DNA of 64,000 bases, from contig NZ_JAHYCB010000004.1 of assembly GCF_019430945.1 (NCBI RefSeq), positions 558,001-622,000 on the forward strand. Reading direction: 5' to 3'. Under the pieces are notes generated by a model, which had not been told where the DNA came from, ran no database searches, and was given only the letters and a program-made list of their open reading frames with translations. Shown here one piece after another: positions 12,310 through 28,255 of the stretch (its first letter is position 1; the number at the start of each line of letters is the position of its first letter). The translations under genes and the position numbers were made by a program. Origin of the DNA: Neorhizobium populisoli. Its GTDB lineage: Bacteria; Pseudomonadota; Alphaproteobacteria; Rhizobiales; Rhizobiaceae.

Positions 12310-12468
12310 TTGGATATCATCCGCATCCTGCTCGCCTTCATCCTGCCGCCGCTCGGCGTGTTCTTTCAGGTGGGCCTTGGCCTGCATTTCTGGCTGAACA
12401 TCCTGCTCACCCTTTGCGGCTGGCTGCCGGGCATCGTGCATGCACTCTGGGTCATCCTGAAGAAATAG
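12310..12468 (+). CDS. YqaE/Pmp3-family small membrane protein
   Basis: 52 residues, the normal size of the family: LDIIRILLAFILPPLGVF, a short polar turn, then LNILLTLCGWLPGIVHALWV, i.e. two transmembrane helices with the typical PPLGVF and GWLPGIVHA motifs. Family members are stress-related hydrophobic proteins thought to affect membrane potential. The TTG start at 12310 is chosen because GGAG (12299-12302) lies 7 nt upstream and it gives the family's standard N-terminus; an ATG at 12238 would add 24 unrelated residues. The last 17 bp overlap the convergent GlxA-type gene. Confidence 0.85.
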   Translation: MDIIRILLAFILPPLGVFFQVGLGLHFWLNILLTLCGWLPGIVHALWVILKK

Positions 12469-13432
12469 GTTGCTTCAGCCGCCGGCGGGTATCACTCGGG
12501 CTTTCGCGATAATGCGCGCGATAGCTGCGGGAAAACGCGGAGGCCGAGTTGAAGCCGGTGGCGGCGGCGACATCCGCGAAAGTCGCGCGCGTTTCGATGA
12601 CTTTTCGACGTGCCGCGTTGAGCCTCAGCGCCAGATAGTGCTCGCGCGGCGCCACACCCATAATATCGTTGAAAAGATCTTGGAGGTGGCGCGCGCTGAC
12701 GCCTGCGCGTTTTGCCAGCCGGGTCAGCGAAAGCGGGGCTTCCACCGTTTCTTCCATCAACTTTACCGCCACCTGCACCCGGCTATCGACGATGCGCATG
12801 TTGCCTATCGCCGGCATCTGCAACAGGTCGCCGCGGGTCCTTTCCTGCTCGTAGATGAAGAGACGCGAGACTTCGAGCGCCAGTGAATAGCCATGCGAAC
12901 GGCGGATCAATTCCAGCATCAAGTCGAGTGTCGGCAGTGAACCGCCGGTGGTTATCCGCTTGCCGTCGATGACGAACCGCTCGCGGACCATGTTCACCTG
13001 CGGATAGGCCGTCGAAAAGTCCTCGAAATCCTCCCAATGGGTCGTGGCGGAAAAGCCATCGAGCAGGCTGGTATCGGCAAGAATGAAGGAGCCAGCCTCG
13101 ATGCCGGCGATCAGCGTCCGGTGTCGGGCGGTTTGTGAAAGCTGGAATTTCAGCTCGCGGGTGGCATGCCGTTTCCAGTTGTAACTCGCAAGCACGAAGA
13201 GTGGATCGCTTTCCCGACCGGGCCGGAATGCGCCGCCGACCGGGATGGGGATGCCGGACTTGGTGTCGATCGGTTGCCCGTCGGGCGAGGACAGTGTCCA
13301 GTGATAAAGCTCCCGGCCGGCGATGCGGTTTGCGGCCCGCAAAGGCTCGATCACGGATGCCGCGAGAATGAGGTTGATCTCCGGCAGCACCAGAATGTCG
13401 AAATGCTGCGCTCCGGCCAAACCGTCTGCCAT
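12452..13432 (-). CDS. GlxA/CdhR-type AraC-family transcriptional regulator
   Basis: 326 residues. The N-terminal half is a DJ-1/PfpI-like amidotransferase fold (FDILVLPEINLILAASVIEPLRAANR, AGIEAGSFILADTSLL). The C-terminal half (about 220-320) has two AraC helix-turn-helix units (LTRLAKRAGVSARHLQDLF, FADVAAATGFNSASAFSRSY). GGAGGA 10 nt before the ATG at 13432 fixes the start. This family regulates quaternary-amine catabolism (CdhR for carnitine, GbdR for betaine in pseudomonads). The divergent genes are carnitine-degrading, so this is probably the local carnitine- or dehydrocarnitine-responsive activator. Confidence 0.9.
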   Translation of the reverse strand: MADGLAGAQHFDILVLPEINLILAASVIEPLRAANRIAGRELYHWTLSSPDGQPIDTKSGIPIPVGGAFRPGRESDPLFVLASYNWKRHATRELKFQLSQTARHRTLIAGIEAGSFILADTSLLDGFSATTHWEDFEDFSTAYPQVNMVRERFVIDGKRITTGGSLPTLDLMLELIRRSHGYSLALEVSRLFIYEQERTRGDLLQMPAIGNMRIVDSRVQVAVKLMEETVEAPLSLTRLAKRAGVSARHLQDLFNDIMGVAPREHYLALRLNAARRKVIETRATFADVAAATGFNSASAFSRSYRAHYRESPSDTRRRLKQPISSG

Positions 13433-13538
13433 GCAACCATCATCCTCCGTTTCCGGTAATGTATAGAATGGCGCCGAAAGTGAAAAGCATTTCGCCCTTG
13501 TCCGGTTCGTAATGCGCAAAACGAACAAGGAGGGGAAG

Positions 13539-14441
13539 ATGCCGCTTGAGATGAACCGCGAGGTTTTCATCACCTGCGCCGTGACCGGTGCCGGCGATAC
13601 GACCGCGAAATCGAGCCACGTGCCGATCACGCCGAAGCAGATCGCGGATTCGGCAATCGACGCCGCCAAGGCCGGAGCGGCAGTCGTCCATTGTCATGTC
13701 CGCAATCCTGAAACCGGTGCGGCTGCACGCGGCATCGATCTTTACAGGGAAGTCACCGACCGCATTCGTTCAGCAGATGTCGATGTGGTGCTGAACCTCA
13801 CCGCCGGCATGGGCGGCGATCTCGTGTTCGGCAATGTCGAGGCGCCGTTCCCGGTCAATCCGAATGGCACCGACATGGCGGGCGCCACGGAGCGTGTCGC
13901 GCATGTGGCCGAATGCCTGCCGGAAATCTGCACGCTCGATTGCGGCACGATGAATTTTTCGCTCGGCGATTACGTCATGACCAACACGCCCTCCATGCTG
14001 CGTGAAATGGCGCGGCAGATGACGGCGCTCGGCGTGCGGCCGGAGATCGAGGCCTTTGACACCGGCCACCTCTGGTTCGCCAAGCAGCTTGTCGAAGAGG
14101 GGCTGATCGAGGATCCGGTATTGATCCAGCTCTGCATGGGCATTCCGTGGGGCGCGCCGGACGACCTCAACACCTTCATGGCGATGGTCAATAACGTGCC
14201 GAAGAACTGGACGTTTTCGGCCTTCTCAATTGGTCGCAACGCGCTGGCCTATCCGGCGGCCGCGGTGCTCGCCGGCGGCAATGTCCGCGTCGGGCTGGAG
14301 GACAATCTCTATGCCGGCAAAGGGCAGCTGGCGACGAATGCGCAGCTCGTTGAAAAGGCGGTTGGCATGATCGAAGGCATGGGCGCCAAGATCATCGGGC
14401 CGGCTGCGGTGCGTGAAAAACTGAAGCTGAAGAAGCGGTGA
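13539..14441 (+). CDS. 3-Dehydrocarnitine cleavage enzyme (BKACE family)
   Basis: 300 residues of the beta-keto acid cleavage family (formerly DUF849). The zinc site HCHVRNP (His51, His53) follows strand AGAAVVHC, and a long TIM-barrel pattern continues to the end. BKACE enzymes condense a beta-keto acid with acetyl-CoA to give acetoacetate and a new CoA ester; for 3-dehydrocarnitine the products are betainyl-CoA and acetoacetate. That assignment rests on the next gene, a carnitine dehydrogenase-thioesterase fusion, overlapping or 5 bp away. AAGGAGGGG (13529-13536) selects ATG 13539 over 13512. It is divergent from the GlxA-type regulator. Confidence 0.88.
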   Translation: MPLEMNREVFITCAVTGAGDTTAKSSHVPITPKQIADSAIDAAKAGAAVVHCHVRNPETGAAARGIDLYREVTDRIRSADVDVVLNLTAGMGGDLVFGNVEAPFPVNPNGTDMAGATERVAHVAECLPEICTLDCGTMNFSLGDYVMTNTPSMLREMARQMTALGVRPEIEAFDTGHLWFAKQLVEEGLIEDPVLIQLCMGIPWGAPDDLNTFMAMVNNVPKNWTFSAFSIGRNALAYPAAAVLAGGNVRVGLEDNLYAGKGQLATNAQLVEKAVGMIEGMGAKIIGPAAVREKLKLKKR

Positions 14442-14446
14442 TCGCC

Positions 14447-15937
14447 ATGAGCAAGATTGAAAAAGCAGCCTGCATCGGCGGTGGCGTGATCGGTGGGGCC
14501 TGGGCGGCTCGGTTTCTGCTGGCCGGTATCGACGTCAACATGTTCGATCCGCATTCCGAAGCGCAGCGTATCGTCGGCGAAGTGCTCGCCAATGCCGAAC
14601 GTGCCTATGCCATGCTCACCATGGCGCCATTGCCGCAAAAGGGAAAAATCACCTTCTGCAAGACGGTCGAGGAAGCTGTTCAAGGCGCCGACTGGATCCA
14701 GGAAAGCGTACCGGAGCGGCTGGAACTGAAGCGTGGCATCATCACCCAGATCGACGCGGCCGCCGATCCGAAGGCGCTGATCGGCTCCTCTACCTCCGGC
14801 CTGATGCCGACCGACCTGCAGCGGGACATGAAACATCCTGAGCGGATGTTCGTCGCACATCCCTATAATCCCGTTTATCTCCTGCCGCTCGCCGAATTGG
14901 TCGGCGGTCAGAGGACATCTGCCGAAACGCTGAAGGCGGCGCAGGAAAAGCTCGCACCAATCGGCATGAAGGGTGTCATCATCAAGAAGGAAATCGAAGC
15001 CTTCGTCGGTGACCGTCTGCTGGAAGCCGTATGGCGCGAGGGCCTCTGGCTGATCCATGACGACATCTGTGATACGGAAACGCTGGACGACGTGATCCGC
15101 TACTCGTTCGGCATGCGCTGGGCGCAGATGGGCATGTTCGAGACCTATCGCATTGCCGGCGGCGAGGCGGGCATGCGGCACTTCTTGGCGCAGTTCGGTC
15201 CGTGCCTCTCCTGGCCGTGGACGAAGCTCACCGATGTCGTCGATCTCGATGATGCGCTGGTCGACAAGATCGCCGGCCAGTCCGATGCACAATCCGGCGC
15301 CCGAGGCATCCGGGATCTGGAACGCATCCGCGACGAAAACCTCGTCGGCATCATGCAGGCGCTGAAGGCAGGCGATGCGGGCAAGGGCTGGGGCGCCGGC
15401 AAGATCCTCGCCGAGTTCGAAAAACATCTCTGGAAGAATTCGCCAAAACCGGCCGCCAAAACCGGCAAGAATGCGCTCGACCTTCTCGAGATCAAGGTCC
15501 ACCCGTCCTGGATCGATTATAACGGTCACATGACCGAGTTCCGTTATGCGCAGTGTTTTGCAGATGCCAGCGACTCGCTTCTGCGCCTGATCGGTGTCGA
15601 TATGGACTATGTCGCGGCAGGCAACAGCTATTACACCGTCGAGACTCATAACCGTTTGCTCGACGAAGCCAAGCTTGGCGATGTCCTGAAAGTCAGCGGG
15701 CAGATATTGCCGTCTTCGGACGGCAAGAAGGTACAGAGCTTCCTGTCGTTGAGCCGCGCTTCGGATGGCGTGCTGCTTGCGACATGCGAACATCTGATGC
15801 TGCATGTCTCGTCGGACGAGGGCAAGGCGGTGGCGCCCGGGGCGGAGGTCATGGGCAGGCTGCAGCCGCTGATCGACGCACACAGGGGCTTGCCGGCGCC
15901 GGAAGGGGCGGGGCGGTCTGTGGGGCAGAAGAGGTAA
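14447..15937 (+). CDS. lcdH: L-carnitine 3-dehydrogenase fused to betainyl-CoA thioesterase
   Basis: 496 residues. An N-terminal 3-hydroxyacyl-CoA-dehydrogenase-like Rossmann domain (CIGGGVIGGAWAARFLLAG) and a helical domain (FVGDRLLEAVWREGLWL) run to about 320. A hotdog thioesterase domain follows (about 345-480, VHPSWIDYNGHMTEFRYAQCF). The fusion is the known form of carnitine dehydrogenase in several proteobacteria: the first domain oxidises carnitine with NAD, the second hydrolyses betainyl-CoA made by the neighbouring BKACE enzyme. A GTG at 14438 overlaps the upstream stop as GTGA; ATG 14447 starts at MSKIEK. Either could be used, and both imply translational coupling. Confidence 0.92.
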   Translation: MSKIEKAACIGGGVIGGAWAARFLLAGIDVNMFDPHSEAQRIVGEVLANAERAYAMLTMAPLPQKGKITFCKTVEEAVQGADWIQESVPERLELKRGIITQIDAAADPKALIGSSTSGLMPTDLQRDMKHPERMFVAHPYNPVYLLPLAELVGGQRTSAETLKAAQEKLAPIGMKGVIIKKEIEAFVGDRLLEAVWREGLWLIHDDICDTETLDDVIRYSFGMRWAQMGMFETYRIAGGEAGMRHFLAQFGPCLSWPWTKLTDVVDLDDALVDKIAGQSDAQSGARGIRDLERIRDENLVGIMQALKAGDAGKGWGAGKILAEFEKHLWKNSPKPAAKTGKNALDLLEIKVHPSWIDYNGHMTEFRYAQCFADASDSLLRLIGVDMDYVAAGNSYYTVETHNRLLDEAKLGDVLKVSGQILPSSDGKKVQSFLSLSRASDGVLLATCEHLMLHVSSDEGKAVAPGAEVMGRLQPLIDAHRGLPAPEGAGRSVGQKR

Positions 15938-16023
15938 GGTGGGGCTTGGCGGGGAGATTGGCTGGGCGCACCGGTGACTTACTCCCATCGACGACAGAGA
16001 GACGCGAGACGTATGCCGCAAGT

Positions 16024-16073
16024 CGATCTCCCTCCTTGTGGGAGAAATGGCCTGCGGGGCAGAGGAGGGTAGC
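16024..16073. repeat. Degenerate palindromic repeat fragment
   Basis: GATCTCCCTCCTTGTGGGAG followed by TGGCCTGCGGGGCAGAGGAGGG resembles half of the element at 17299-17470. It lies just upstream of the acyl-CoA dehydrogenase gene. Confidence 0.4.
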
Positions 16074-16106
16074 GGCGCCTTCCGCTTTTAGTGTGGAGGA
16101 GAACAC

Positions 16107-17267
16107 ATGAATTTCGGCCTGACCGGCGAGCAGGAAATGATCGTCAAGACCGTCCGCGATTTTGTCGAGACGGAGATTTATCCGCACGAAAATGAGGTAG
16201 AGCGCACCGGTATCGTGCCGCCGGAGCTTGGCCGAGAGATCGCCACGAAATGTCGGGAAATAGGCTTCTTTGGATGCAATTTCCCCGAAGAGGTGGGAGG
16301 TGCCGGTCTCGATCACACATCTTTCACGCTGGTGGAGCGTGAGCTCGGTCGCGGCTCGATGGCGCTGACCGTGTTTTTTGGCCGCCCCTCCGGCATCCTG
16401 ATGGCTTGCAATGACGAGCAACGAGAAAAGTATCTTTTCCCGGCAGTGAAGGGCGAAAAGTTCGATGCGCTGGCCATGACCGAGCCGGATGCAGGTTCGG
16501 ATGTGCGCGGCATGAAATGTTTTGCCCGGAAAGACGGCGACGACTGGGTTGTCAACGGTACGAAACACTTCATCAGCCACGCCAATATCGCCGACTTCGT
16601 GATCGTCTTCATTGCGACGGGCGAGGAGGAGACACCGCGCGGGCCGAAGAAGCTGATCACCTGTTTCTTCGTCGATCGCGGCACGCCGGGTTTCGAAATC
16701 CGTGAGGGTTACAATTCCGTCTCGCATCGCGGTTACAAGAACTGCATTCTCACCTTCGACGAATGCCGGTTGCCGTCGGCGCAAATCCTCGGCGAGGTAC
16801 ACAAGGGTTTCGACATCGCCAACGACTGGCTTTATGCGACGCGCCTGACGGTTGCGGCCACCTCGGTTGGCCGGGCGCGGCGGGCGTTCGACTACGCCCT
16901 GAACTATGCGGCCGAGCGAAAACAGTTCGGCAAGCCGATCGGCGCCAACCAGGGCGTTTCCTTCAAACTGGCCGACATGATCACCGAGATCGATGCCGCG
17001 GACCTGCTGACGCTCTCCGCCGCCTGGCGGCTCGACCAGGGCCTGCCGTCGAACCGCGAAATCGCCTCCGCCAAGGTGTTTGCCACGGAAATGCTCGCCC
17101 GCGTCACCGACGAAGCGATCCAGATCTTTGGTGGCATGGGCCTGATGGATGACCTGCCGCTGGCGCGGTTCTGGCGAGACGCGCGGGTGGAGCGTATCTG
17201 GGACGGCACGTCGGAAATCCAGAGGCATATCATCAGCCGCGATCTGCTGCGGCCGCTGGGGGCTTGA
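16107..17267 (+). CDS. Acyl-CoA dehydrogenase, probably gamma-butyrobetainyl-CoA dehydrogenase
   Basis: 386 residues, normal length. Flavin and substrate motifs ALAMTEPDAGSDVRGM and VNGTKHFISHANIADF are followed by the C-terminal FGGMGLMDDLPLARFWRD and WDGTSEIQ. Asp366 occupies the place where medium-chain enzymes have the catalytic Glu. It lies between the carnitine dehydrogenase fusion and a CoA ligase plus CaiD-like dehydratase. The natural reaction in that setting is gamma-butyrobetainyl-CoA to crotonobetainyl-CoA, the reverse of CaiA. Substrate is inferred from neighbours only. GTGGAGGAGAAC gives a strong ribosome-binding site. Confidence 0.85.
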   Translation: MNFGLTGEQEMIVKTVRDFVETEIYPHENEVERTGIVPPELGREIATKCREIGFFGCNFPEEVGGAGLDHTSFTLVERELGRGSMALTVFFGRPSGILMACNDEQREKYLFPAVKGEKFDALAMTEPDAGSDVRGMKCFARKDGDDWVVNGTKHFISHANIADFVIVFIATGEEETPRGPKKLITCFFVDRGTPGFEIREGYNSVSHRGYKNCILTFDECRLPSAQILGEVHKGFDIANDWLYATRLTVAATSVGRARRAFDYALNYAAERKQFGKPIGANQGVSFKLADMITEIDAADLLTLSAAWRLDQGLPSNREIASAKVFATEMLARVTDEAIQIFGGMGLMDDLPLARFWRDARVERIWDGTSEIQRHIISRDLLRPLGA

Positions 17268-17298
17268 GATGTATAAGTACTCGCAGTCGTTGGGGCGC

Positions 17299-17470
17299 GC
17301 CCCCCTCTGCCCTGACGGGCATCCCCCCCTCAAGGGGGGAGATCGGATGGAGCACCGCCCCGCGCCTATCTCCCCTGTTAGGTTTAGCCAACGCAAAATG
17401 CTGGGTGAAGGGCATGCCATAGGCCAATCTCCCCCCTTGAGGGGGAGATGCCCGGCAGGGCTGAGGGGTG
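17299..17470. repeat. Palindromic repeat pair, CCCCCTCAAGGGGG type
   Basis: Two inverted copies of a unit built of GCCCTGACGGGCATC / GATGCCCGGCAGGGC and CCCCCTCAAGGGGGGAGAT / TCTCCCCCCTTGAGGGGGAG (at 17307-17345 and 17428-17466) frame about 80 bp. The right copy ends 11 bp before the ligase start, and its GAGGGGTG may act as the gene's weak ribosome-binding site. Confidence 0.7.
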
Positions 17471-17480
17471 TATCTGCGGT

Positions 17481-19556
17481 ATGACGCCAGCCCCCCGTTC
17501 TCTCGACCGCCTCACACGCCCCAAAACCATCGCAGTCTTCGGCGGCAAGGAAGCCCGTCGCGTCATCGAGCAATGCGACAAGATGGGTTTTGCCGGCGAG
17601 ATCTGGCCCGTTCATCCAAAGAGTGACGAAATCCTCGGGCGCAAATGTTATCGCTCGGTGGCTGACCTGCCGGCCGCACCGGATGCCTCCTTCGTCGGTG
17701 TTAACAGGCAGCTGACGATCGAGATCATCCGCGATCTTTCGGCTCGCGGGGCAGGCGGTGCGGTCTGTTACGCCTCCGGCTTCCGCGAAGCCGTGAGCGA
17801 GCTTGCCGATGGCGACGCGCTACAGGCGGCCCTGGTCGCGGCGGCGGGCGACATGCCGATCCTCGGACCGAATTGCTACGGTTTCATCAACATGCTGGAT
17901 GGAGCGCTGATGTGGCCGGATCAGCATGGCATGTTGCGTGTCGACCGCGGCGTCGCGGTGCTGACGCAGTCCTCCAACATTGCCTGCAACATTTCCATGC
18001 AGCAGCGTGGCTTGCCGCTTGCCTATCTGATGACGGCCGGCAACCAGGCACAGACAGGGCTCGCTGAACTCGCCTGCACCGTCATCCAGGATTCCCGCGT
18101 CACCGCCGTCGGCTTGCATGTGGAGGGGTTCGACAGTCTGGAAGCGCTGGAGCGGCTTGCAGGCCTGTCCCGGCAGCTGAAAAAGCCGGTCGTGATGCTG
18201 AAAGTCGGGAAATCGGAGGCGGCGCAGCTTGCGACCGTTTCTCACACAGCTTCGCTCGCCGGCAATGACCGTGTCTCTTCTGCCCTGCTGGAACGTCTCG
18301 GGATCGGCCGTGTCGAAACATTACCCGAACTGCTGGAAACGTTGAAGCTTCTCCATCTCTACGGCCCGCTGGAGAGTGCCGATATCTCGTCCATGAGCTG
18401 TTCCGGCGGCGAAGCCTCGCTGATGGCGGATGCCGGAGTTAGGCGGAAAATCGCCTATCGGCCGCTGAGAGACGAACAGCTGAAGCCCCTGCGCGAAACG
18501 CTCGGCCAGATGGTGACGCTTGCCAACCCGCTGGATTATCACACGTTCGTCTGGGGAAATGGTGAGAAACAGACAGCGGCCATCACTGCGATGATGCAGG
18601 GTGGCTATGCGTTGAATCTCGTGGTGCTGGACTTCCCGCGCCTTGATCGCTGCGACGCCGCCGACTGGATGACGACCGTGGATGCGGTCGTTGCGGCGCG
18701 TATTGCAACGGGAGCCAATGCCGGTATCGTTTCCAGCATGGCGGAAAACCTGCCGGAAGCGGTGGCCGAGCGACTGATGCGTGATGGCGTAGTACCTTTT
18801 TACGGCATCGAGGAAACGCTTGCCGCGGCGGAGACTGCGGCCTTTATCGGCAAGGCCTGGCGTGAGCCTGCACCTGCACCTCTACTGAAATCCAATGCTG
18901 GTGCCGGCGAGTTGGTGACACTCAACGAAGACGACGCAAAGCGCGAGCTTTCCGCCTTCGGTTTGCCAGTTCCAGAGGGGCTGGTGGAGATTGAGCCTGA
19001 AGACACCGGGCCTGCGGCGGAAAGGCTCGGCTTCCCGGTGGTGCTGAAAGGGCGCGGGGTCGCCCACAAGACGGAGGCCGGAGCTGTGAAGCTCAACCTG
19101 AAAAGCCGTGACGAGGTCAACGCCGCGGCGCATGCCATGGCCGGCGCCGCAAACGGCTACCTGGTCGAGAAAATGGCCGGTAAGCCCGTCGCGGAAATCA
19201 TTATCGGCGCCATTCGCGATCCGGTTGCCGGGCTGGTGCTCACGGTCGGCGCTGGCGGGATTTTGGTGGAGCTGCTGGAGGATTCGGCGCTGATCACCTT
19301 GCCACCAACGCGGGCGGCGATCTCTGCGGCGATCTCCGGTCTCAAGATCAGGAAACTGCTGGATGGTTATCGCGGCGGGCCGAAGGGCGACATCGCTGCT
19401 CTGGAGCTGGCTGTTGCCGCCGTCGCAGCCTATCTGGTCGCCAATGCCGGCGATATCGAAGAGCTCGATATCAATCCGGTCATGGTTCTGCCGGAAGGCG
19501 AGGGAGTGGTTGCCGTGGATGCGCTGGTGCGGCGAAGAATTCCATCTTCCCTTTGA
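17481..19556 (+). CDS. NDP-forming acyl-CoA synthetase, probable (gamma-butyro/croto)betaine-CoA ligase
   Basis: 691 residues of the ADP-forming acetyl-CoA synthetase superfamily. A CoA-binding domain (TIAVFGGKEARRVIEQCDKMGF) is followed by flavodoxin-like domains with phosphohistidine motif SHTASLAG (His255), then ATP-grasp from about 480 (GFPVVLKGRGVAHKTEAGAV, ELDINPVMV). It is distinct from the FerA-like copy at 4117. It sits directly ahead of the CaiD homologue where enterobacteria use CaiB/CaiC, so it probably activates gamma-butyrobetaine, crotonobetaine or carnitine. Substrate is inferred. The ATG at 17481 is preferred because the longer frame from 17448 merely translates the repeat. 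Confidence 0.82.
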   Translation: MTPAPRSLDRLTRPKTIAVFGGKEARRVIEQCDKMGFAGEIWPVHPKSDEILGRKCYRSVADLPAAPDASFVGVNRQLTIEIIRDLSARGAGGAVCYASGFREAVSELADGDALQAALVAAAGDMPILGPNCYGFINMLDGALMWPDQHGMLRVDRGVAVLTQSSNIACNISMQQRGLPLAYLMTAGNQAQTGLAELACTVIQDSRVTAVGLHVEGFDSLEALERLAGLSRQLKKPVVMLKVGKSEAAQLATVSHTASLAGNDRVSSALLERLGIGRVETLPELLETLKLLHLYGPLESADISSMSCSGGEASLMADAGVRRKIAYRPLRDEQLKPLRETLGQMVTLANPLDYHTFVWGNGEKQTAAITAMMQGGYALNLVVLDFPRLDRCDAADWMTTVDAVVAARIATGANAGIVSSMAENLPEAVAERLMRDGVVPFYGIEETLAAAETAAFIGKAWREPAPAPLLKSNAGAGELVTLNEDDAKRELSAFGLPVPEGLVEIEPEDTGPAAERLGFPVVLKGRGVAHKTEAGAVKLNLKSRDEVNAAAHAMAGAANGYLVEKMAGKPVAEIIIGAIRDPVAGLVLTVGAGGILVELLEDSALITLPPTRAAISAAISGLKIRKLLDGYRGGPKGDIAALELAVAAVAAYLVANAGDIEELDINPVMVLPEGEGVVAVDALVRRRIPSSL

Positions 19557-19620
19557 CGGGAGGTGCGCGGCTGTGACCCGCCAATACAGAAAACCTCGAC
19601 TGGGGGGAAAGAATACGAGC

Positions 19621-20406
19621 ATGACCGACCAACCGATCAAAACACGCCGCGAGGATGGCATTCTCGAAGTCACCATCGATCGGCCGAAGGCGAATGCGAT
19701 CGATCTTGTCACATCGCGGATCATGGGCGAGATATTTCGCGATTTCCGGGATGATGAAACGCTGCGTGTTGCGATCATTACCGGCGCCGGCGAGAAATTC
19801 TTTTGCCCGGGTTGGGATCTGAAAGCTGCGGCTTCCGGCGATGCCGTGGACGGCGACTATGGCGTCGGCGGTTTTGGAGGCATGCAGGAGCTGCGCGATC
19901 TCAACAAGCCGATCATCGCAGCGGTGAACGGCATCTGCTGCGGCGGCGGTCTGGAAATCGCGCTCTCGACGGATCTCATTCTGGCGGCCGAGCACGCCAC
20001 CTTCGCGCTTCCCGAAATCCGCTCCGGCACGGTTGCCGATGCGGCCTCGATCAAGCTGCCGAAGCGCATTCCCTACCATATCGCAATGGATATGCTGTTT
20101 ACAGGACGCTGGCTCGACGTGCAGGAAGCGCATCGCTGGGGGTTCGTCAATGAAATCCTGACGGCCGAAAAGCTGATGGCCCGCGCCTGGGAGCTGGCAC
20201 GCCTGCTCGAAAGCGGCCCGCCGCTGGTTTATGCGGCGATCAAGGAAGTGGTGCGCGAGGCGGAAGGCGAGAAATTCCAGGCGACCATGAACCGCATTAC
20301 CCGCCGCCAGCTGAAGACGGTCGATATTCTCTATTCCAGCGACGACCAGCTGGAAGGCGCACGCGCCTTTGCCGAAAAGCGTGATCCGGTGTGGAAGGGC
20401 AAGTAA
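19621..20406 (+). CDS. caiD: Carnitinyl-CoA dehydratase-like enoyl-CoA hydratase (CaiD homologue)
   Basis: 261 residues, exactly the length of E. coli CaiD. Many stretches match it: RPKANAID, RVAIITGAGEKFF, GWDLKAAA and the C-terminal AFAEKRDPVWKGK. The catalytic pair Glu111/Glu131 of CaiD corresponds to Glu112 (GGGLE) and Glu132 (LPEIRSG). It interconverts crotonobetainyl-CoA and carnitinyl-CoA. In this aerobic setting it would run in the hydrating direction. A run of G (CTGGGGGGAAAG) precedes the ATG at 19621; a longer frame from 19363 overlaps the ligase and is not supported. Confidence 0.88.
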   Translation: MTDQPIKTRREDGILEVTIDRPKANAIDLVTSRIMGEIFRDFRDDETLRVAIITGAGEKFFCPGWDLKAAASGDAVDGDYGVGGFGGMQELRDLNKPIIAAVNGICCGGGLEIALSTDLILAAEHATFALPEIRSGTVADAASIKLPKRIPYHIAMDMLFTGRWLDVQEAHRWGFVNEILTAEKLMARAWELARLLESGPPLVYAAIKEVVREAEGEKFQATMNRITRRQLKTVDILYSSDDQLEGARAFAEKRDPVWKGK

Positions 20407-20410
20407 CCCT

Positions 20411-20647
20411 TCAGGCTGCGATATCTGCGATCTCGCCGGCCTGCCACAGGACCTTCGGATCCGACATGTCGCCGCTTTCCATATCCACCTGCACCGAATA
20501 AGCCGCGACGCCCACGAAACGTTCGGCCATGGCACGGGCGATCTTTTCTGCCGATGCTGCATTGGATGCGGCCCGCATTTCTCCGGGCGCGATATTGCCC
20601 CTGACCTTCTTGAACGGCAGGACGATGAATTTTTCCGATTTTGACAT
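20411..20647 (-). CDS. Small protein of unknown function in the carnitine island
   Basis: 78 residues, no signal peptide or membrane span. MSKSEKFIVLPFKKVRGNI is followed by an alanine-rich helix (AASNAASAEKIARAMAERFVGVAAYSV) and an acidic C-terminus. The upstream AAAGGGGATTCC is a workable ribosome-binding site. It is convergent with the CaiD-like gene, stop codons 4 bp apart. I do not recognise the family. The compact alpha/beta pattern with an early Arg/Lys patch does not permit a functional call. Confidence 0.6.
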   Translation of the reverse strand: MSKSEKFIVLPFKKVRGNIAPGEMRAASNAASAEKIARAMAERFVGVAAYSVQVDMESGDMSDPKVLWQAGEIADIAA

Positions 20648-20756
20648 GGAATCCCCTTTGATGTTCCCATTTTGTTCATATGATTGGCGAAGTCAACGAC
20701 GAGCCAGTGACATTCGTGAAATAATTCGGGAATAGGGCTTTCTACTCTCGGTTTGG

Positions 20757-21230
20757 GTGAAGAATTTGAATATCGGTTTTTTCGAAGAGGCGGATGTCGA
20801 TGACCTTGCCTCGCTTCTCATGGAAATGCAGGCCTATTACGGGGTATTTTGCCCACCGCGCGAAGCGGTGCTCGCCGGCATTCTTGATCGACCCAAAAAC
20901 TCCGAAATACTGGTTGCGAAGGCAGATCGGATCGTCGGTATGGCGGCTTTCGGGGCCAACTATCCGGGGCCGGGTCTCAAACCCGGTTTCTTTCTCAAGG
21001 ATCTCTATGTCCTGAATGCCGAACGCGGCAGGGATATCGGCACCAAGCTCGTGACGCGGCTGGCGGCGCTGGCGGTAGAGCGTGGCCATAGCCGGATCGA
21101 CTGGACCGCCGGCCGGTCCAACGAAAGGCTGCTGCGTTTTTATGACGAACTGGGTGGAGACCGGAAGGAAGACCGCATCTTTTATCGCCTGGAGGGCGAG
21201 AAACTGAAGGCGCTGGCGGCCAAAGCCTGA
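20757..21230 (+). CDS. GNAT-family N-acetyltransferase
   Basis: 157 residues with the GNAT pattern: an N-terminal IGFFEEADVDDLASLL, a mid beta-hairpin (ILVAKADRIVGMAAF), the acetyl-CoA-binding stretch LKDLYVLNAERGRDIGTKLVTRLAALA and a final NERLLRFYDELGG. The acceptor substrate is unknown. The start codon shown is GTG at 20757 without a clear Shine-Dalgarno; a TTG at 20766 preceded by GGTGAAG is an alternative. It is divergent from the small 20411 gene and has no evident link to the surrounding pathway. Confidence 0.82.
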   Translation: MKNLNIGFFEEADVDDLASLLMEMQAYYGVFCPPREAVLAGILDRPKNSEILVAKADRIVGMAAFGANYPGPGLKPGFFLKDLYVLNAERGRDIGTKLVTRLAALAVERGHSRIDWTAGRSNERLLRFYDELGGDRKEDRIFYRLEGEKLKALAAKA

Positions 21231-21233
21231 GAG

Positions 21234-21632
21234 TTATTGCTTGTGCCCGTCATATTGAGGCAGGTCGTCGGTGATCTCATACCACGGTGCTTTCGAGCCG
21301 ACGAAGATGTGATGGGTCGGACAAATGCTCGGCGCTTCGACAAGCGTGCCCATCGCCACATGATACCAGGCGGCCTCGCGCACGAGAGAATAGAGCAGCG
21401 AGCCGCAAACGCGGCAATGGGCATCGTGATTATCCGCCCCGCCGTAAATCGTCAGGCCGTCGGCTCCCTTGGTGAGCGTGAGCTTCTCACGCGGAATACC
21501 GGCAAACGGCTTGAAGGCCGAACCTGTCGTGCGGCGGCAATCGGAACAGTGGCAATTGGCAGCGTAAACGAAGCTGTCATCAACCGCATATTCTACCGCG
21601 CCGCAAAGGCATCTGCCCGACAGTCTTTTCAT
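21234..21632 (-). CDS. GFA/CENP-V-family zinc protein
   Basis: 132 residues with three cysteine clusters for zinc binding: CLCGAVEY near the N-terminus, CHCSDCRRTTGSAF, and CRVCGSLLY. This is the fold of glutathione-dependent formaldehyde-activating enzyme and its relatives; many members have no proven activity. It starts 7 bp after the Rieske oxygenase stop, on the same strand, so it is very likely co-transcribed. Because the Rieske enzyme and the two DMGDH-like enzymes release formaldehyde or methylene-THF, a formaldehyde-handling role is a reasonable inference. Confidence 0.85.
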   Translation of the reverse strand: MKRLSGRCLCGAVEYAVDDSFVYAANCHCSDCRRTTGSAFKPFAGIPREKLTLTKGADGLTIYGGADNHDAHCRVCGSLLYSLVREAAWYHVAMGTLVEAPSICPTHHIFVGSKAPWYEITDDLPQYDGHKQ

Positions 21633-21639
21633 CTGCGCC

Positions 21640-22869
21640 TCACGCCCGGCTGATCTCATCCAGATACCAGCCGATATAGCGCAATTCGTTCTGTTCCATA
21701 GGGGCGATCGGACCGGGAACGAAGAAACGGGAAACAACGCCGCGGGCGGTATGCTCGATGATCGCCTTGTCTTCGTCCGTTGTCACCTTCCAGAGCCAGG
21801 TGAGCTGTTCGAGATCGTAATCGCGGCCTTCCTCCGCCTTGGCGTCCACCAGCCAGATCAGTTCCATCTCGCAGGTATCTACCGTTTTTGGAATAAAACG
21901 GTAGATCATGCCGTGGTCGGCATAACAGACGAGGAAACTCGTGCCGCCGAGATGGATGGAGGTGACGCCGCCGTCGAAATCTGAAAACCGGCCCATCAGC
22001 GGGGCGAGCGGCTGGCCATCCTTGCTGCCGGTTTTCACGCCATCGTAGAGCGCATACCGGAAGGCATGGATCGCCTCGCGACCTTCCCTGGAATTCTGCC
22101 AGTGATTGCCGGACCCGACTTCAATGCCCAGAGCGCAGGTGCGCTCCTCCATCCTGGCGTTCAGCTCCTCGATCATGTGCAGCGGCTGTTCCAGCGCGTG
22201 GGTCTCGGAATATTCCGGATGCGCCGGGCCGCAATGGTAACACTCGACATAGTTCTCGACGGCGAGCTTCCAGTTGGCGTCCAGCGGGTAACTCTGGCGA
22301 TAGGCGATCTTGGCGGAGGCCCAGCCATATTGCCCGCAGGTGGCGTGCAGCAGGTTTTCCACCTCGGAGAAATCCAGCGGATTTTCGGCGAAGGAAATGA
22401 AGACGAGGCCTTCGACGACACGGACATGCAGCTTTTTCAGCCCGTGGTCCTCGCGCTTGAAATCCTTCGGCATCAGCCGCGCGGCTTTCAGCCGGCCGTC
22501 GTTCGCAAAGGTCCAGGCATGATAGGGACAGACGAAGGCCTTGGCATTGCCCTTTTCCTGCGTGCAAACCTCCGCGCCGCGATGGCGGCAGACGTTCAGC
22601 ATGGCATGCACCGTGCCATCGCCCGCGCGGGTGAGGATGATCTGTTCGGCGCCGAGCTTGAAGACTTCGAAATCGTTGAGATTTGGAATGACGCTTTCGT
22701 GCGCCAGGCAGTGCCAGTGGCGGAAGAAGACGCGGGCCATATCCCGCTCGAAGATCTCGGGGTCGTGGTAGAAGGGGCGGGTGAGGCCATGGCCGGGACG
22801 GTGCTCGGAGATGAGGCGGTCGATGCGGTCGCCGGTGGCGACATTGGTTTTCGGATCGGATGCCAGCAT
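21640..22869 (-). CDS. gbcA: Rieske non-heme iron oxygenase alpha subunit, probable glycine betaine monooxygenase (GbcA-like)
   Basis: 409 residues. The Rieske [2Fe-2S] site is Cys94-x-His96 and Cys114-x2-His117 (CRHRG, CPYHAW). The mononuclear iron site is in NWKLAVENYVECYHCGPAHP, with His212 and His217. The residue bridging the two centres is Glu209 instead of the usual Asp, as in the carnitine oxygenase CntA and relatives acting on quaternary amines. Expected reaction: glycine betaine to dimethylglycine plus formaldehyde. AAGGAG 9 nt upstream of ATG 22869 fixes the start. No GbcB-like ferredoxin reductase is seen anywhere in the window. Confidence 0.87.
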   Translation of the reverse strand: MLASDPKTNVATGDRIDRLISEHRPGHGLTRPFYHDPEIFERDMARVFFRHWHCLAHESVIPNLNDFEVFKLGAEQIILTRAGDGTVHAMLNVCRHRGAEVCTQEKGNAKAFVCPYHAWTFANDGRLKAARLMPKDFKREDHGLKKLHVRVVEGLVFISFAENPLDFSEVENLLHATCGQYGWASAKIAYRQSYPLDANWKLAVENYVECYHCGPAHPEYSETHALEQPLHMIEELNARMEERTCALGIEVGSGNHWQNSREGREAIHAFRYALYDGVKTGSKDGQPLAPLMGRFSDFDGGVTSIHLGGTSFLVCYADHGMIYRFIPKTVDTCEMELIWLVDAKAEEGRDYDLEQLTWLWKVTTDEDKAIIEHTARGVVSRFFVPGPIAPMEQNELRYIGWYLDEISRA

Positions 22870-22914
22870 GATCTCGGTCTCCTTAGTGGCCTTACGGCCT
22901 ATTCGTTCAAGCTG

Positions 22915-23053
22915 CCCCTCATCCGCCCTGCCGGGCACCTTCTCCCCGCCCGCGGGGAGAAGGTGACTCGCGGCACTGTCTTTGCCCCAACGTGGGCGTT
23001 GAGCATGGCACGTCCCCTCTCCCCGCGAGCGGGGAGAGGGTTAGGGTGAGGGG
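22915..23053. repeat. Rhizobial mosaic palindromic repeat (A-to-B orientation)
   Basis: CCCCTCATCCGCCCTGCCGG plus CTTCTCCCCGCCCGCGGGGAG (type A) at the left and CTCTCCCCGCGAGCGGGGAGAG with TTAGGGTGAGGGGC (type B) at the right. The middle contains GACGTGCCATGC on the minus strand, shared with 28095-28233. It separates the Rieske gene from the DMGDH-like pair. Confidence 0.8.
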
Positions 23054-23085
23054 CAGTCTCATCGGCAAAGCCGATGAAGGGCAAT

Positions 23086-25536
23086 TTACATTCGCACTCG
23101 CTCGGCCTTCGGGTCGTACATCGGCGAAAGCGACGCCTCCGCCTTAACCCGCCGGCCGGCGATTTCGATTTCGTAATTCGAAGCCAGCATATCGGTTGCG
23201 CTCTCGTCTTTGCAGGGCACATAGCCGAGACCGACCGCGCCGCCGAGGAAATGGCCGTAATTACCGGACGTGATCGTCCCGACGATCTTTCCGTCGCGGA
23301 CGACAGCCTCGTTGTGGAAGAGCAGCGGTTGAGGGTTGGTCAGGCGGAACTGTAACAGCCGGCGGTCAAGCCCGGCCTCTTGCTTCCGCAGCACCGCATC
23401 GCGGCCGAGGAAATCAGCTTTGTCCGTCTTCACTGCGAAACCAAGGCCGGCTTCCAGCACATGGTCCTCATCCGTGATGTCATGGCCGAAATGGCGGAAG
23501 GCCTTTTCGATGCGGCACGAATCCAGCGTGTGAATGCCGCAGAGTTTCAGGCCGATATCGGCTCCAGCCTCTTCCAGCGCTTCGAAGACATGTGCCGTCT
23601 GGTCGGTCGAGACGTAAAGCTCCCAGCCAAGTTCGCCGACATAGGTGACCCGATGGGCGCGGGCGAGGCCCATGCCGATCTCGATCTCGCGGGCGGTGCC
23701 AAAGGGATGCACCGTATTGGAAAAGTCGTTTGGGCTGACCTTCTGGATCAGTTCGCGCGATTTCGGCCCCATCAGGCAGATCACGCTTTCGGCAGCAGTT
23801 ACATCGGTGATTACGACGAACTCGTCGCCGAGGTTCTTGCGCAGCCAGGCAAGGTCACGCTGCAGCGTCGCACCCGGCACGACGAGCAGGAAAGCGGTCT
23901 CGGAAAGGCGGGTGACGGTAAGGTCGCTCTCGATGCCGCCCTTTCGGTTCAGCATCTGGGTATAGACGATGCGGTCCACTAGCACGTCGATCTGGTTGGC
24001 GCAGAGGCGGTTGAGGAAGATGCAAGCATCACGGCCCTCGACGCGGATCTTGCCGAACGAGGTCATGTCGAACAGACCAACGCCGGTGCGCACCGCCATA
24101 TGCTCGTCGCGCTGGTTTTCGAACCAGTTCTGCCTCTGCCAGCTATAGCGGTATTCGCGCTCCTGGCCTGGCTTGGCGAACCAGTTGGCGCGCTCCCAGC
24201 CTGCCACCTCGCCGAACACAGCGCCGCGTGCCTTCAGATGTTCGTGGATCGGCGAGCGGCGTACGCCGCGGGCCGTCGCCATCTGACGATAGGGGAAATG
24301 GTCGGCATAGAGCAGGCCGAGCGTTTCGGTGACGCGCTCCTTCAGGTAGCGGCGGTTCTTCTGGAAGGGCTGGGCGCGGCGGATATCGACTTCCCAGAGG
24401 TCGAAGGGCGCTTCGCCATCGTTCATCCATTGCGCCAGCGCCATGCCGGCGCCGCCGGAGGAAACGATGCCGATGGAGTTGTAGCCGGCGGCAACCCAAT
24501 AACCCTTCAGTTCCGGCGCTTCGCCGAGATAATAGCGGTCGTCGGGGGTAAAGCTCTCAGGGCCGTTGAAGAAGGTGTGGATGCCGGCGGTTTCCAGCAT
24601 CGGCATGCGGTTGATCGCCATTTCCAGGATCGGCTGGAAATGGTCGAAATCCTCCGGCAACTGATCGAAGCAGAAATCCTCGCGGATTTTCTCGCCCGCC
24701 GGCGGCCAGGGCTTGGCGACCGGCTCGAAGGCGCCGACCAGCATCTTGCCGGCATCCTCCTTGTAATAGGTGCATTCGTCCGGCACGCGCAGCACCGGCA
24801 GTTGTTTCAGCCCGGCGATCGGTTCAGTGACGATGTAGAAATGCTCGCAGGCATGCAGCGGCACGGTGACGCCAGACGAGGCGGCAAGATCACGACCCCA
24901 CATGCCGGCGCAGTTGACGACATTTTCCGTCTCGATGACGTATCGCTCGCCATTCTGCTCGCAGGCCACGCCGGTGACGCGGCCATCCTTGGCGATGACT
25001 TCGGTGACCTTTACGCCTTCGAGGACGGTGGCACCGTTCTGGCGTGCGCCTTTGGCGAGCGCCATGGCGATATTGGCCGGATCGCACTGGCCGTCGAGCG
25101 GCAGATGTACGGCGGCCTTGATGTCACCGATGTTCAAGTGCGGATACATCGCCTTCGCCTCGTCCGGCGAGATTTCGCGGACATCGATATTGAAGGCGCG
25201 AGCAAGCGAGGCCTGGCGGTAGATTTCCTCTTTCCGCTCCTCCGTCAGCGCCACGGTCATCGAGCCGTTTTGCTTCATGCCGGTTCCGATGCCGGTTTCC
25301 GCCTCCAGCTTTACGTAGAGATCGGCGGAATATTTGGCGAGCCGGGTCATGTTCTGGCTGGCGCGCAACTGGCCGATCAAGCCGGCTGCGTGCCACGTGG
25401 TGCCGGAGGTGAGCTGCTTGCGTTCCAACAGCACGACATCCGTCCAGCCGAGCTTGGCCAGGTGATATGCGACCGAACAGCCGGAGACGCCGCCGCCGAT
25501 GATCACTGCTCGGGCTTTCGAGGGGATCGTTTTCAT
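23086..25536 (-). CDS. Dimethylglycine/sarcosine dehydrogenase-like FAD-GcvT fusion, copy 1
   Basis: 816 residues. The N-terminal DAO-type FAD domain (AVIIGGGVSGCSVAYHL) has SGTTWHAAG, whose His49 matches the covalent flavin-attachment histidine of dimethylglycine dehydrogenase. From about residue 430 a GcvT-like tetrahydrofolate-binding aminomethyltransferase half follows (GLFDMTSFGKIRVEG, MGPKSRELI, GELGWELYV). It should oxidatively demethylate dimethylglycine or sarcosine and pass the C1 unit to THF. The ATG at 25536 overlaps the stop of the upstream paralogue as ATGA, so the two are translationally coupled. Confidence 0.9.
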   Translation of the reverse strand: MKTIPSKARAVIIGGGVSGCSVAYHLAKLGWTDVVLLERKQLTSGTTWHAAGLIGQLRASQNMTRLAKYSADLYVKLEAETGIGTGMKQNGSMTVALTEERKEEIYRQASLARAFNIDVREISPDEAKAMYPHLNIGDIKAAVHLPLDGQCDPANIAMALAKGARQNGATVLEGVKVTEVIAKDGRVTGVACEQNGERYVIETENVVNCAGMWGRDLAASSGVTVPLHACEHFYIVTEPIAGLKQLPVLRVPDECTYYKEDAGKMLVGAFEPVAKPWPPAGEKIREDFCFDQLPEDFDHFQPILEMAINRMPMLETAGIHTFFNGPESFTPDDRYYLGEAPELKGYWVAAGYNSIGIVSSGGAGMALAQWMNDGEAPFDLWEVDIRRAQPFQKNRRYLKERVTETLGLLYADHFPYRQMATARGVRRSPIHEHLKARGAVFGEVAGWERANWFAKPGQEREYRYSWQRQNWFENQRDEHMAVRTGVGLFDMTSFGKIRVEGRDACIFLNRLCANQIDVLVDRIVYTQMLNRKGGIESDLTVTRLSETAFLLVVPGATLQRDLAWLRKNLGDEFVVITDVTAAESVICLMGPKSRELIQKVSPNDFSNTVHPFGTAREIEIGMGLARAHRVTYVGELGWELYVSTDQTAHVFEALEEAGADIGLKLCGIHTLDSCRIEKAFRHFGHDITDEDHVLEAGLGFAVKTDKADFLGRDAVLRKQEAGLDRRLLQFRLTNPQPLLFHNEAVVRDGKIVGTITSGNYGHFLGGAVGLGYVPCKDESATDMLASNYEIEIAGRRVKAEASLSPMYDPKAERVRM

Positions 25537-27983
25537 GCGCGGATCCTCTCGTTTGCCGAGTCCCAAAGGGCCTGTTCCGCCTGCACGGTGGCCTTGAAGC
25601 GATCTCCGAAAATCTCGACTTCGAGTTCCGTTCCGGGCTCTGCAAGATCGGCGCGCAACATGCCGAGTGCGATGGATTTGCCGGTGCGGTAACCCCAGTT
25701 GCCGGAGGTCGTCTCGCCGACCACCTCGCCGCCATGCCAGAGCGTCGACATGTAAGGCGCGTCGCAATCGCCGGCGTCGACGACAAGCGTCACGAAGCGC
25801 CTCCTGACGCCTTGCTGCTTTTCGGCGGCGAGTGCCGCCTTGCCCCTGAAATCCGGTTTCGACCAGTCGACGAAACGTTCGAGCCCACCCTGTAACACGG
25901 TGTAATCGGTCGAAAGATCGCCCTTCCAGGCGCGATAGCCTTTTTCGATGCGCAGGCAGTCCAGCGCTTCCATGCCGAAGGGTTTGAGACCGTGTTTCTG
26001 GCCGGCTGCCCAGACGGCATCGAAGATGATTGCCGTGTCATCGAGCTTGGTATGGATTTCCCAGCCCAATTCGCCGGCGAAGGAGACGCGCACCAACTGG
26101 CACCAGCGGCTGGCAATCTGGCAGGATTGATGCGTGAGCCAGCCCTTCGAAAGATCGGCGTCGCTGACTTCGGCCAGGATATCGCGGCTCTTCGGGCCGG
26201 AGAGGATCTGGCAGGAGAATTGCTCGGTGACATCGTCGATCGAGAAGGCGGCATCCGTTGGCAGATGTTTCTTCAGCCAGTCGAGGTCGTGCCACTGGGC
26301 GGTGGCGGCGGTGATCAGGAAGAAGAAATCCTCATCCAGCATCATCACGGACATTTCCGTGACGATGCGGCCCTTGTCGTCGGCGAAATAGGCGAGCCCG
26401 ATGCGGCCGGGTTTCGGCACCTTGCCGGTGATCAGCGAGGAGAACCATTCGGTGGCGCCCGTTCCCTTGACTCGGTAGCGGGAAAAACCCGGCAGATCGA
26501 GAATGCCGGCGGCATCGCGGACTGCGAGACATTCCTCCTCGATGCGCTGGCTCCAGGGCCCTTCGCGGTTCCAGGTCTGGGTCGCTTCCTCCGATGTGTT
26601 ATCGCCCGGTTTGGCATACCACATGGCGCGCTCCCAGCCGTTATAGGGCTTGAACTGGGCGCCGAGCGCGGCGATGCGGTCATGGATCGGCGACAGTTTT
26701 TTCCCGCGCCCTGCCGGCCAATAGTGTTTCGGGAAATGCATCGCATATTCGTGGCCGTAGATTTCCATGCCTTTGGAGATGCAATAATCCGGGTGGGAGG
26801 CGAAGGATGTGTAGCGGCGCGGGTCGCAGCTCCACATGTCCCATTCGGTTTCGCCTTCGGTCACCCATTCGGCCAGGACCTTGCCGGCGCCGCCGGCCTG
26901 GCAGATGCCGAAAGTGAAGACGCAGGCCTCGAAAGCGTTCGGCACGCCGGGCATCGGGCCGATCAGCGGATTGCCGTCCGGCGCATAGGGGATCGGTCCG
27001 TTGATGATGCGCGACAGGCCGGCCGTGCCGAGGATCGGCACGCGGGCAACAGCGTCGTTCAGATACCACTCCAGCCGGTCGAGATCGTCGGGGAAAAGCT
27101 GGAAGGAGAAATCGTCCGGCATCGGGTCATCCGCTGTTACCCAGTGGGCCCGGCAGTTCCTCTCATAGGGGCCGAGATTCATGCCGTTTTTCTCCTGCCG
27201 GAGATAATAGGAGCTGTCGACGTCCCGCAGCAGCGGCAGCTTGTGGCCGGCCTCCCTGGACCAGGCGGCAAGTTCGGGGATCTCGTCGAACAGGATATAT
27301 TGATGGCTCATCACCATCATCGGCACGTCGCGGCCGAACAGTTTTCCCACCTCGCGGGCATAATACCCGGCGGCGTTGACCACATATTCGCAGGCGATCT
27401 CACCCTTCGGCGTGGTCAGGATCCAGTCGCCCTTTTCCCGGCGCGCCGCCGTGACGGGACAGAAGCGGATAATCTTCGCACCCATGTCGCGGGCACCCTT
27501 TGCCAGCGCCTGGGTCAGCTGCGCCGGATCGATGTCGCCGTCATAGGGGTCATAAAGCGCCCCGGTCAGTTCGTGGGTTTCGAGAAAGGGATACCTTTGC
27601 CGCATCTCGTCCGGTGAAATGATGTCGAGGTCCATCCCCTGATAACGACCCATGCCGACGACGCGCTTGAACTCCCGCAGGCGTTCGTTGTTGTGGCCGA
27701 GGCGGATCGAGCCGGTCACATGGTAGTTCATCGGATAATCGACCATCGCGCCCAGCTCCCGATAAAGCGAGGCGGAATAACGCTGCATGTTCATGATCGA
27801 CCAGGAAGACGAGAAGGTCGGCACATTGCCGGCCGCGTGCCAGGTGGAGCCGGCGGTCAGCTCGTTCTTTTCCAGAAGCACGCAATCCGTCCAGCCAGCC
27901 TTGGCGAGATGGTAGAGCGACGACGCCCCCACCGCTCCCCCGCCGATGATCACCACGCGCGCCCGTTCCGGCAATTCCGACAT
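25533..27983 (-). CDS. Dimethylglycine/sarcosine dehydrogenase-like FAD-GcvT fusion, copy 2
   Basis: 816 residues, the same length as its downstream partner but clearly diverged. FAD fingerprint VVIIGGGAVGASSLYHLAKAG; AGSTWHAAG places the covalent flavin histidine again at His49. The GcvT half begins near 480 (GILDLPGFSRYRVKG, LSGPKSRDILAE, GELGWEIHTKL). AGGGGAGAGACG precedes the ATG. One copy probably acts on dimethylglycine and the other on sarcosine, completing betaine to glycine; which is which cannot be told here. It is the first gene of the pair, divergent from a LysR-type regulator. Confidence 0.9.
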   Translation of the reverse strand: MSELPERARVVIIGGGAVGASSLYHLAKAGWTDCVLLEKNELTAGSTWHAAGNVPTFSSSWSIMNMQRYSASLYRELGAMVDYPMNYHVTGSIRLGHNNERLREFKRVVGMGRYQGMDLDIISPDEMRQRYPFLETHELTGALYDPYDGDIDPAQLTQALAKGARDMGAKIIRFCPVTAARREKGDWILTTPKGEIACEYVVNAAGYYAREVGKLFGRDVPMMVMSHQYILFDEIPELAAWSREAGHKLPLLRDVDSSYYLRQEKNGMNLGPYERNCRAHWVTADDPMPDDFSFQLFPDDLDRLEWYLNDAVARVPILGTAGLSRIINGPIPYAPDGNPLIGPMPGVPNAFEACVFTFGICQAGGAGKVLAEWVTEGETEWDMWSCDPRRYTSFASHPDYCISKGMEIYGHEYAMHFPKHYWPAGRGKKLSPIHDRIAALGAQFKPYNGWERAMWYAKPGDNTSEEATQTWNREGPWSQRIEEECLAVRDAAGILDLPGFSRYRVKGTGATEWFSSLITGKVPKPGRIGLAYFADDKGRIVTEMSVMMLDEDFFFLITAATAQWHDLDWLKKHLPTDAAFSIDDVTEQFSCQILSGPKSRDILAEVSDADLSKGWLTHQSCQIASRWCQLVRVSFAGELGWEIHTKLDDTAIIFDAVWAAGQKHGLKPFGMEALDCLRIEKGYRAWKGDLSTDYTVLQGGLERFVDWSKPDFRGKAALAAEKQQGVRRRFVTLVVDAGDCDAPYMSTLWHGGEVVGETTSGNWGYRTGKSIALGMLRADLAEPGTELEVEIFGDRFKATVQAEQALWDSANERIRA

Positions 27984-28233: not shown

Positions 28234-28255
28234 CTAATCACGCGGGAGCAACAAA

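Follow-up and report, generated by a model that had tools for sequence, protein, structure and literature searches.

A carnitine operon of the S. meliloti type and an adjoining Rieske-dimethylglycine dehydrogenase module, a candidate for betaine demethylation, in Neorhizobium populisoli

Two neighboring operons were analyzed in a stretch of 64,000 nucleotides from Neorhizobium populisoli (contig NZ_JAHYCB010000004.1, positions 558,001 to 622,000), hereafter called the window. The first (12452-20406) is very probably the rhizobial operon for the conversion of gamma-butyrobetaine and carnitine to glycine betaine that is known from Sinorhizobium meliloti. The second, a LysR-linked operon for a Rieske oxygenase and two proteins of the dimethylglycine dehydrogenase (DMGDH) type, would most likely demethylate glycine betaine; for both halves taken jointly, we regard the chances as evenly balanced. 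All ten genes that the original prediction had named at 12452-27983 lie on the strands it gave and match the classes it assigned in Pfam and NCBIfam.

A carnitine operon shared among rhizobia

The first operon and its immediate neighbors comprise the following genes:

12452-13432, minus strand: GATase-AraC regulator (GlxA/CdhR/GbdR-type), divergent from the operon; 75.6% identity to the S. meliloti stretch at the same place
13539-14441, plus strand: BKACE, presumed dehydrocarnitine cleavage enzyme (PF05853, 325 bits); 89% identity to the S. meliloti gene at the same place
14447-15937, plus strand: carnitine 3-dehydrogenase-thioesterase fusion, the thioesterase presumed to act on betainyl-coenzyme A (CoA); 71% identity to S. 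meliloti
16107-17267, plus strand: acyl-CoA dehydrogenase (Pfam), presumed gamma-butyrobetainyl-CoA dehydrogenase; 92.5% identity to S. meliloti
17481-19556, plus strand: nucleoside diphosphate (NDP)-forming acyl-CoA ligase, putatively BcoAB-type from its domains, two aligned histidines and synteny; 75% identity to S. meliloti Ak57
19621-20406, plus strand: CaiD-like crotonobetainyl-CoA hydratase (ECH_1); 89% identity to S. meliloti caiD
20757-21230, plus strand: GNAT acetyltransferase (Pfam), kept near the cluster in some relatives (6/80 loci)

Gene starts were set from relatives and from the upstream sequence. The likely starts are 13432 for the regulator, 13539 for BKACE, 17481 for the ligase (as had been claimed), 19621 for the CaiD-like gene, 22869 for the Rieske gene and 25536 for the second DMGDH-type gene. 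The fusion protein contains the Pfam domains 3HCDH and 4HBT_2 and passes the NCBIfam carnitine 3-dehydrogenase model NF005716 (840 bits, cut-off 592). The regulator has an HTH_18 match and a DJ-1/PfpI match under its cut-off (Pfam), and falls short of the NCBIfam GbdR model (218 vs 480 bits). Two enterobacterial NCBIfam models were likewise not reached: the acyl-CoA dehydrogenase fails the CaiA crotonobetainyl-CoA dehydrogenase model NF002885 (189 vs 540 bits), and the CaiD-like protein remains under the CaiD model NF002936 (304 vs 500 bits), though this is its best family match.

The order regulator (reversed), BKACE, fusion gene, acyl-CoA dehydrogenase, ligase, caiD is common to S. meliloti Ak57, N. 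petrolearium, Neorhizobium NCHU2750, R. etli IE4803, and Rhizobium NLR16a, and the matched pieces of the five enzymes are 64-94% identical across these five relatives. This shared gene order speaks against a chance grouping. In S. meliloti Ak57, the ligase is unannotated and its match consists of two tblastn pieces in different frames (locus L035, 16001-18066). Split matches were also observed for the ligase, CaiD, and the first DMGDH-type protein in Rhizobium sp. CC-CFT758 (L045), which suggests strain-level breaks or sequencing errors in both strains.

Within the order, a ligase match at E <= 1e-60 was found in 47/199 genomes, that of N. populisoli included, some of these being other ligases of the family. 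In the loci of the best 30 of these 47 genomes, again including the locus studied here, the acyl-CoA dehydrogenase gene adjoins the ligase gene in all 30 and the hydratase gene in 25. Among plasmids, the ligase matches 458 records, in 340 of which at least 80% of its length lies in one place; since 319 of the 458 matches are less than 60% identical, many must be other members of the family. Other rhizobia thus share the pathway of S. meliloti, NDP-forming ligase included, and frequently carry it on plasmids.

From the gene content, domains, motifs, gene order, and co-occurrence observed, we infer the reactions in this organism as follows. The ligase would convert gamma-butyrobetaine to gamma-butyrobetainyl-CoA through acyl-phosphate and phosphohistidine intermediates, as its fold and two conserved histidines suggest. 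The acyl-CoA dehydrogenase would then yield crotonobetainyl-CoA, which the CaiD-like hydratase would turn into carnitinyl-CoA. Thioesterase and carnitine dehydrogenase functions would both be supplied by the fusion protein. From dehydrocarnitine and acetyl-CoA, BKACE would form acetoacetate and betainyl-CoA, from which the thioesterase is predicted to free glycine betaine. The order of steps proposed in the original prediction, from gamma-butyrobetaine by way of the CoA ester, crotonobetainyl-CoA, carnitinyl-CoA, carnitine, and dehydrocarnitine to betaine, agrees with the syntenic cluster of S. meliloti.

The S. meliloti L-carnitine/gamma-butyrobetaine cluster around SMc01638 is reportedly the subject of Bazire et al. 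2019 (J Bacteriol 201:e00772-18), a paper of which A. Perret is said to be an author and whose abstract is said to describe five enzymes and seven steps leading from gamma-butyrobetaine to glycine betaine. Purified S. meliloti BcoAB makes gamma-butyrobetainyl-CoA from gamma-butyrobetaine, adenosine triphosphate and CoA, the BcoAB plasmid being a gift of A. Perret (PMC8364193), and SM2011_c01638 oxidizes carnitine and also turns betainyl-CoA into glycine betaine (PMC12482172, citing Bazire et al. 2019).

The Rieske-DMGDH module

Downstream of the carnitine operon, a second set of genes was found at 21640-29107:

21640-22869, minus strand: Group V type Rieske monooxygenase (Pfam Rieske and Ring_hydroxyl_A), with the motif ECYHC at residue 232 of a 432-residue frame
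23086-25536, minus strand: DMGDH-type flavoprotein 2 (DMGDH-2), with DAO, FAO_M, GCV_T, and GCV_T_C domains and a TWHAAG motif
25533-27983, minus strand: DMGDH-type flavoprotein 1 (DMGDH-1), with DAO, FAO_M, GCV_T, and GCV_T_C domains; among solved structures, dimethylglycine dehydrogenases match it best
28256-29107, plus strand: LysR-type regulator gene, transcribed divergently from the Rieske-DMGDH operon; annotated as LysR in NCHU2750 (65%) and CC-CFT758 (70%)

The start of DMGDH-2 overlaps the stop of DMGDH-1 by 4 bases, and the two proteins are 36% identical. Both have the architecture of dimethylglycine dehydrogenases (DAO and GCV_T domains together with WHAAG, a motif with a role in covalent flavin attachment), and DMGDH-1 matches the structure 4pab with 578 bits. 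The operon may be controlled by the divergent LysR-type regulator. If its substrate is glycine betaine, the Rieske oxygenase would remove the first of the three methyl groups, and the two DMGDH-type flavoproteins would then remove the remaining ones in turn with tetrahydrofolate.

The conservation of the module was analyzed in a genome collection in which 161 pattern matches were found; 157 of these encode a relative of the Rieske protein, and the best 80 were kept. Flanks of up to 10 kb were inspected for genes with 50% identity over 60% of the length, ten loci being shorter than 21 kb. Of the 80 loci, 56 contain DMGDH-1, 54 DMGDH-2, 47 the LysR gene, 14 the CaiD-like gene, and 12 the ligase. 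Close orthologues of the Rieske protein (at least 75%) occur in Rhizobiaceae, Phyllobacteriaceae, and two Paracoccaceae.

Thirteen loci have carnitine genes beside the module. Nine of them fall in the same Neorhizobium-like clade as the window and show its gene order as far as their flanks reach; in one (L068), several kb of extra DNA separate the module from the carnitine genes, of which only those for the ligase and CaiD are within reach. In the four others, from Phyllobacterium and Paramesorhizobium, the carnitine cluster lies on the other side, the operon order is Rieske, DMGDH-1, DMGDH-2, and the carnitine enzymes are more diverged (53-75%). A CaiD-like gene also lies at the edge of a further locus, from Shinella daejeonensis (L107), which is perhaps a third arrangement of carnitine genes and module.

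Carnitine adjacency was mapped on a quickly built tree with 84 Rieske rows, of which 74 were scored, with seven short loci dropped and L107 scored as being without carnitine genes. Two changes sufficed, both forced by starred branches, compared with a mean of 13.2 after shuffling (0/500 shuffles as low), a count that by itself fits gain as well as loss and in which near-copies cluster the label. The differing gene orders in the two clades favor two separate joinings of the module with carnitine loci, and the presence of the module beside carnitine clusters in two Rieske clades with different orders makes a link between the pathways likely. The Rieske-DMGDH operon is probably the downstream partner of the carnitine operon. 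No description of this linkage was found in the open-licence literature, mostly among the top-ranked matches.

In N. petrolearium OS53, fragments of the Rieske 3' end were observed beside caiD (L036, 19257-19398), suggesting that the module was lost there.

Which betaine would the module demethylate?

We slightly favor glycine betaine over another betaine as the substrate of the module, but several observations weigh against this reading. The Rieske protein fails the NCBIfam GbcA model NF058607 (261 bits, cut-off 670), so that an identity as GbcA was rejected at the curated cut-off and naming the protein GbcA lacks support. No GbcB-type reductase was found near the gene: FAD_binding_6, the mark of such reductases, is confined in this genome to contigs C1 and C14. 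Only 13 of the 80 Rieske loci, and one more at its edge, have carnitine genes beside them, and hence the module is a separate unit. Co-occurrence in the genus (E <= 1e-150) does count in favor of a tie between the two operons, with the Rieske gene in 12 of 57 genomes and the ligase in 13 (the ligase match being partial in G237); all 12 are among the 13, but this co-occurrence is not independent evidence because the genes form one linked block. In several relatives, the Rieske gene is found without DMGDH genes. Finally, other candidates for betaine demethylation are encoded elsewhere in the genome, on contigs C12 and C2.

The C12 candidate is a second Rieske protein, 31% identical to the one in the window and nearer to GbcA and Stc2: it scores 528 bits with the GbcA model, also under the cut-off, and 529-570 bits with Stc2 and the structure 3n0q. 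On C2, a stretch of about 20 kb (38029-58197) contains genes for an MtgB-type protein (763 bits), a BHMT/MtgE-type protein over its cut-off (562 bits), and a third DMGDH-type protein, and resembles the cobalamin-dependent betaine route. MtgBCDE was proposed as the betaine demethylation route of roseobacters, with the same genes colocalized in S. meliloti (PMC12478193), and BHMT has been named for S. meliloti (PMC12093977). Given the C12 and C2 candidates, the window Rieske gene is one of several in this genome for betaine demethylation. The conversion of betaine to glycine by a GbcA-like oxygenase and two DMGDHs, as originally predicted, is therefore no more than plausible, with the GbcA assignment failing and other demethylation candidates being present.

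It is a serious possibility, a little short of probable, that the carnitine operon functions as proposed but that the Rieske-DMGDH module acts on another quaternary amine, such as gamma-butyrobetaine, carnitine, proline betaine, or another plant betaine, while glycine betaine is demethylated by the MtgB/MtgE-type genes on C2 or by the C12 Rieske protein. Besides the failure of the GbcA model, the fit of the window protein to solved structures argues for this alternative. Its best solved relatives are 3n0q (239 bits) and 4qup/3vca (218 bits), the latter two of which we take to be Stc2, then CntA over a shorter stretch; the C12 paralogue fits these structures far better. Its iron-site stretch, NYVECYHCGPAHP, is nearer to that of CntA (NYMECYHCGPAHP) than to that of Stc2 (NNRECYHCSSNHP). 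The Cys-X-X-Cys pair beside the mononuclear iron site, found in some Group V Rieske enzymes (PMC10952381), is present as ECYHC.

The neighborhood of orthologues elsewhere points the same way. At least 18 of the 80 loci, among them L098, L106, L107, and L124, have an MttB-family gene next to the Rieske gene and in the same orientation; it lies upstream, downstream, or between the Rieske gene and DMGDH-2. This figure is a lower bound, as predicted open reading frames run on the opposite strand over the Rieske gene in 29/80 loci, and PF06253 was tested for one of the 18. The encoded proteins share 38-40% identity with the MttB-type neighbor of a Leisingera Rieske gene and only 25-28% with the MtgB of N. 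populisoli itself. This adjacency was the least expected observation of our analysis, and neighbors from a distinct MttB subfamily suggest that a different quaternary amine may be the substrate of this Rieske clade. In contrast, the module is tied to glycine betaine-producing clusters in two clades, a pair of DMGDH-type proteins suits the stepwise demethylation of dimethylglycine and then of sarcosine, and DMGDH-1 is close to the mitochondrial enzyme. The neighbors at loci lacking carnitine genes (aldehyde dehydrogenase, ATP-binding cassette (ABC) transporter ATPase, siderophore-type uptake) point to no substrate, and nothing on point was found in the open-licence literature for homarine as a lead.

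Tentatively, the Rieske clade may consist of quaternary-amine oxygenases with a substrate outside those of GbcA, Stc2, and CntA. Its members would work either together with a pair of DMGDH-type enzymes or alongside a distinct methyltransferase of the MttB type, and carnitine loci would have acquired the oxygenase on two occasions. If this is true, rhizobia would possess an additional way, dependent on oxygen, to demethylate betaines. With glycine betaine as the slightly favored substrate, the module is a testable candidate for rhizobial betaine demethylation, for which the cobalamin route MtgBCDE was recently proposed.

The NDP-forming ligase

The ligase is a fused protein with CoA_binding_2, Succ_CoA_lig, and ATP-grasp_5 domains (Pfam), the domain set of the NDP-forming ACD family. 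His266 (SHT) and His540 (AHKT), numbered in a frame of 702 residues that starts at 17448, align with the corresponding residues of the solved 4-hydroxybutyrate-CoA ligase 8wzu; in NDP-forming ligases, these two histidines are the phosphohistidines of a phosphoryl relay. With its counterpart in S. meliloti Ak57 as a syntenic orthologue, the protein appears to be a BcoAB-type gamma-butyrobetaine:CoA ligase, BcoAB presumably being the syntenic S. meliloti gene product, to judge from its name and its position.

Neither the CaiB family PF02515 nor PF00501, the family of AMP (adenosine monophosphate)-forming ligases to which CaiC belongs, has a Pfam match within the window, with 4 and 15 matches, respectively, elsewhere in the genome. 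The proposal that an NDP-forming ligase takes the place of CaiB and CaiC is correct. Its novelty, which had been presented as the unusual point of the cluster, is rejected because BcoAB is already in print (PMC8364193) and is presumably the syntenic NDP-forming ligase.

It is unlikely that crotonobetaine or carnitine is the main substrate of the ligase and gamma-butyrobetaine a secondary one. The operon has enzymes for all three CoA esters, and substrates vary among ligases of this fold (4-hydroxybutyrate, 3-hydroxypropionate, dimethylsulfoniopropionate), but the S. meliloti relative was used as a gamma-butyrobetaine ligase (PMC8364193) and the acyl-CoA dehydrogenase gene is a steadier neighbor than the hydratase gene. 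A role in the metabolism of hydroxycinnamate or another acid, which the window's other NDP-forming ligase (4117-6237) probably has since it sits with a hydroxycinnamoyl-CoA hydratase/lyase, is very improbable for ligase 17481: the two proteins are 30% identical, and the orthologues of ligase 17481 lie with carnitine genes in all six annotated relatives inspected.

Other gene clusters in the window

The region 4117-8760, which encodes the second ligase, an aldehyde dehydrogenase, and a p-hydroxycinnamoyl-CoA hydratase/lyase (415 bits, cut-off 276), is probably a hydroxycinnamate catabolic cluster, and its order is kept in N. petrolearium. At 8860-11460, a single 866-codon frame contains two acyl-CoA dehydrogenases, PimD-like and then PimC-like; as these are two separate genes in N. 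petrolearium, the frame looks like a fusion or the result of a lost stop codon.

Comparison with known systems

The first operon resembles the S. meliloti cluster in the order of regulator, BKACE, carnitine dehydrogenase-thioesterase, acyl-CoA dehydrogenase, NDP-forming ligase, and CaiD genes, with 71-92% identity. It differs from S. meliloti Ak57 and R. etli further downstream, where these have a peptide-type ABC transporter and the window has the GNAT, Rieske, and DMGDH genes. The enterobacterial cai operon includes CaiA, CaiB, CaiC, and CaiD; the window encodes distant homologues of CaiA and CaiD that do not reach the respective models and lacks matches to the Pfam families of CaiB and CaiC. 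Unlike the cai operon, the window operon presumably runs in the direction of aerobic catabolism. The Rieske protein shares its fold and the ECYHC at its iron site with the Group V oxygenases GbcAB, Stc2, and CntA, but remains below the GbcA cut-off and is 31% identical to the GbcA/Stc2-type paralogue of its own genome. Finally, the DMGDH-type proteins have the full DAO and GCV_T architecture and the STWHAAG/TWHAAG motif of mitochondrial dimethylglycine dehydrogenase and dimethylglycine oxidase, whereas in the window they are encoded by two adjacent copies on the same strand as the Rieske gene.

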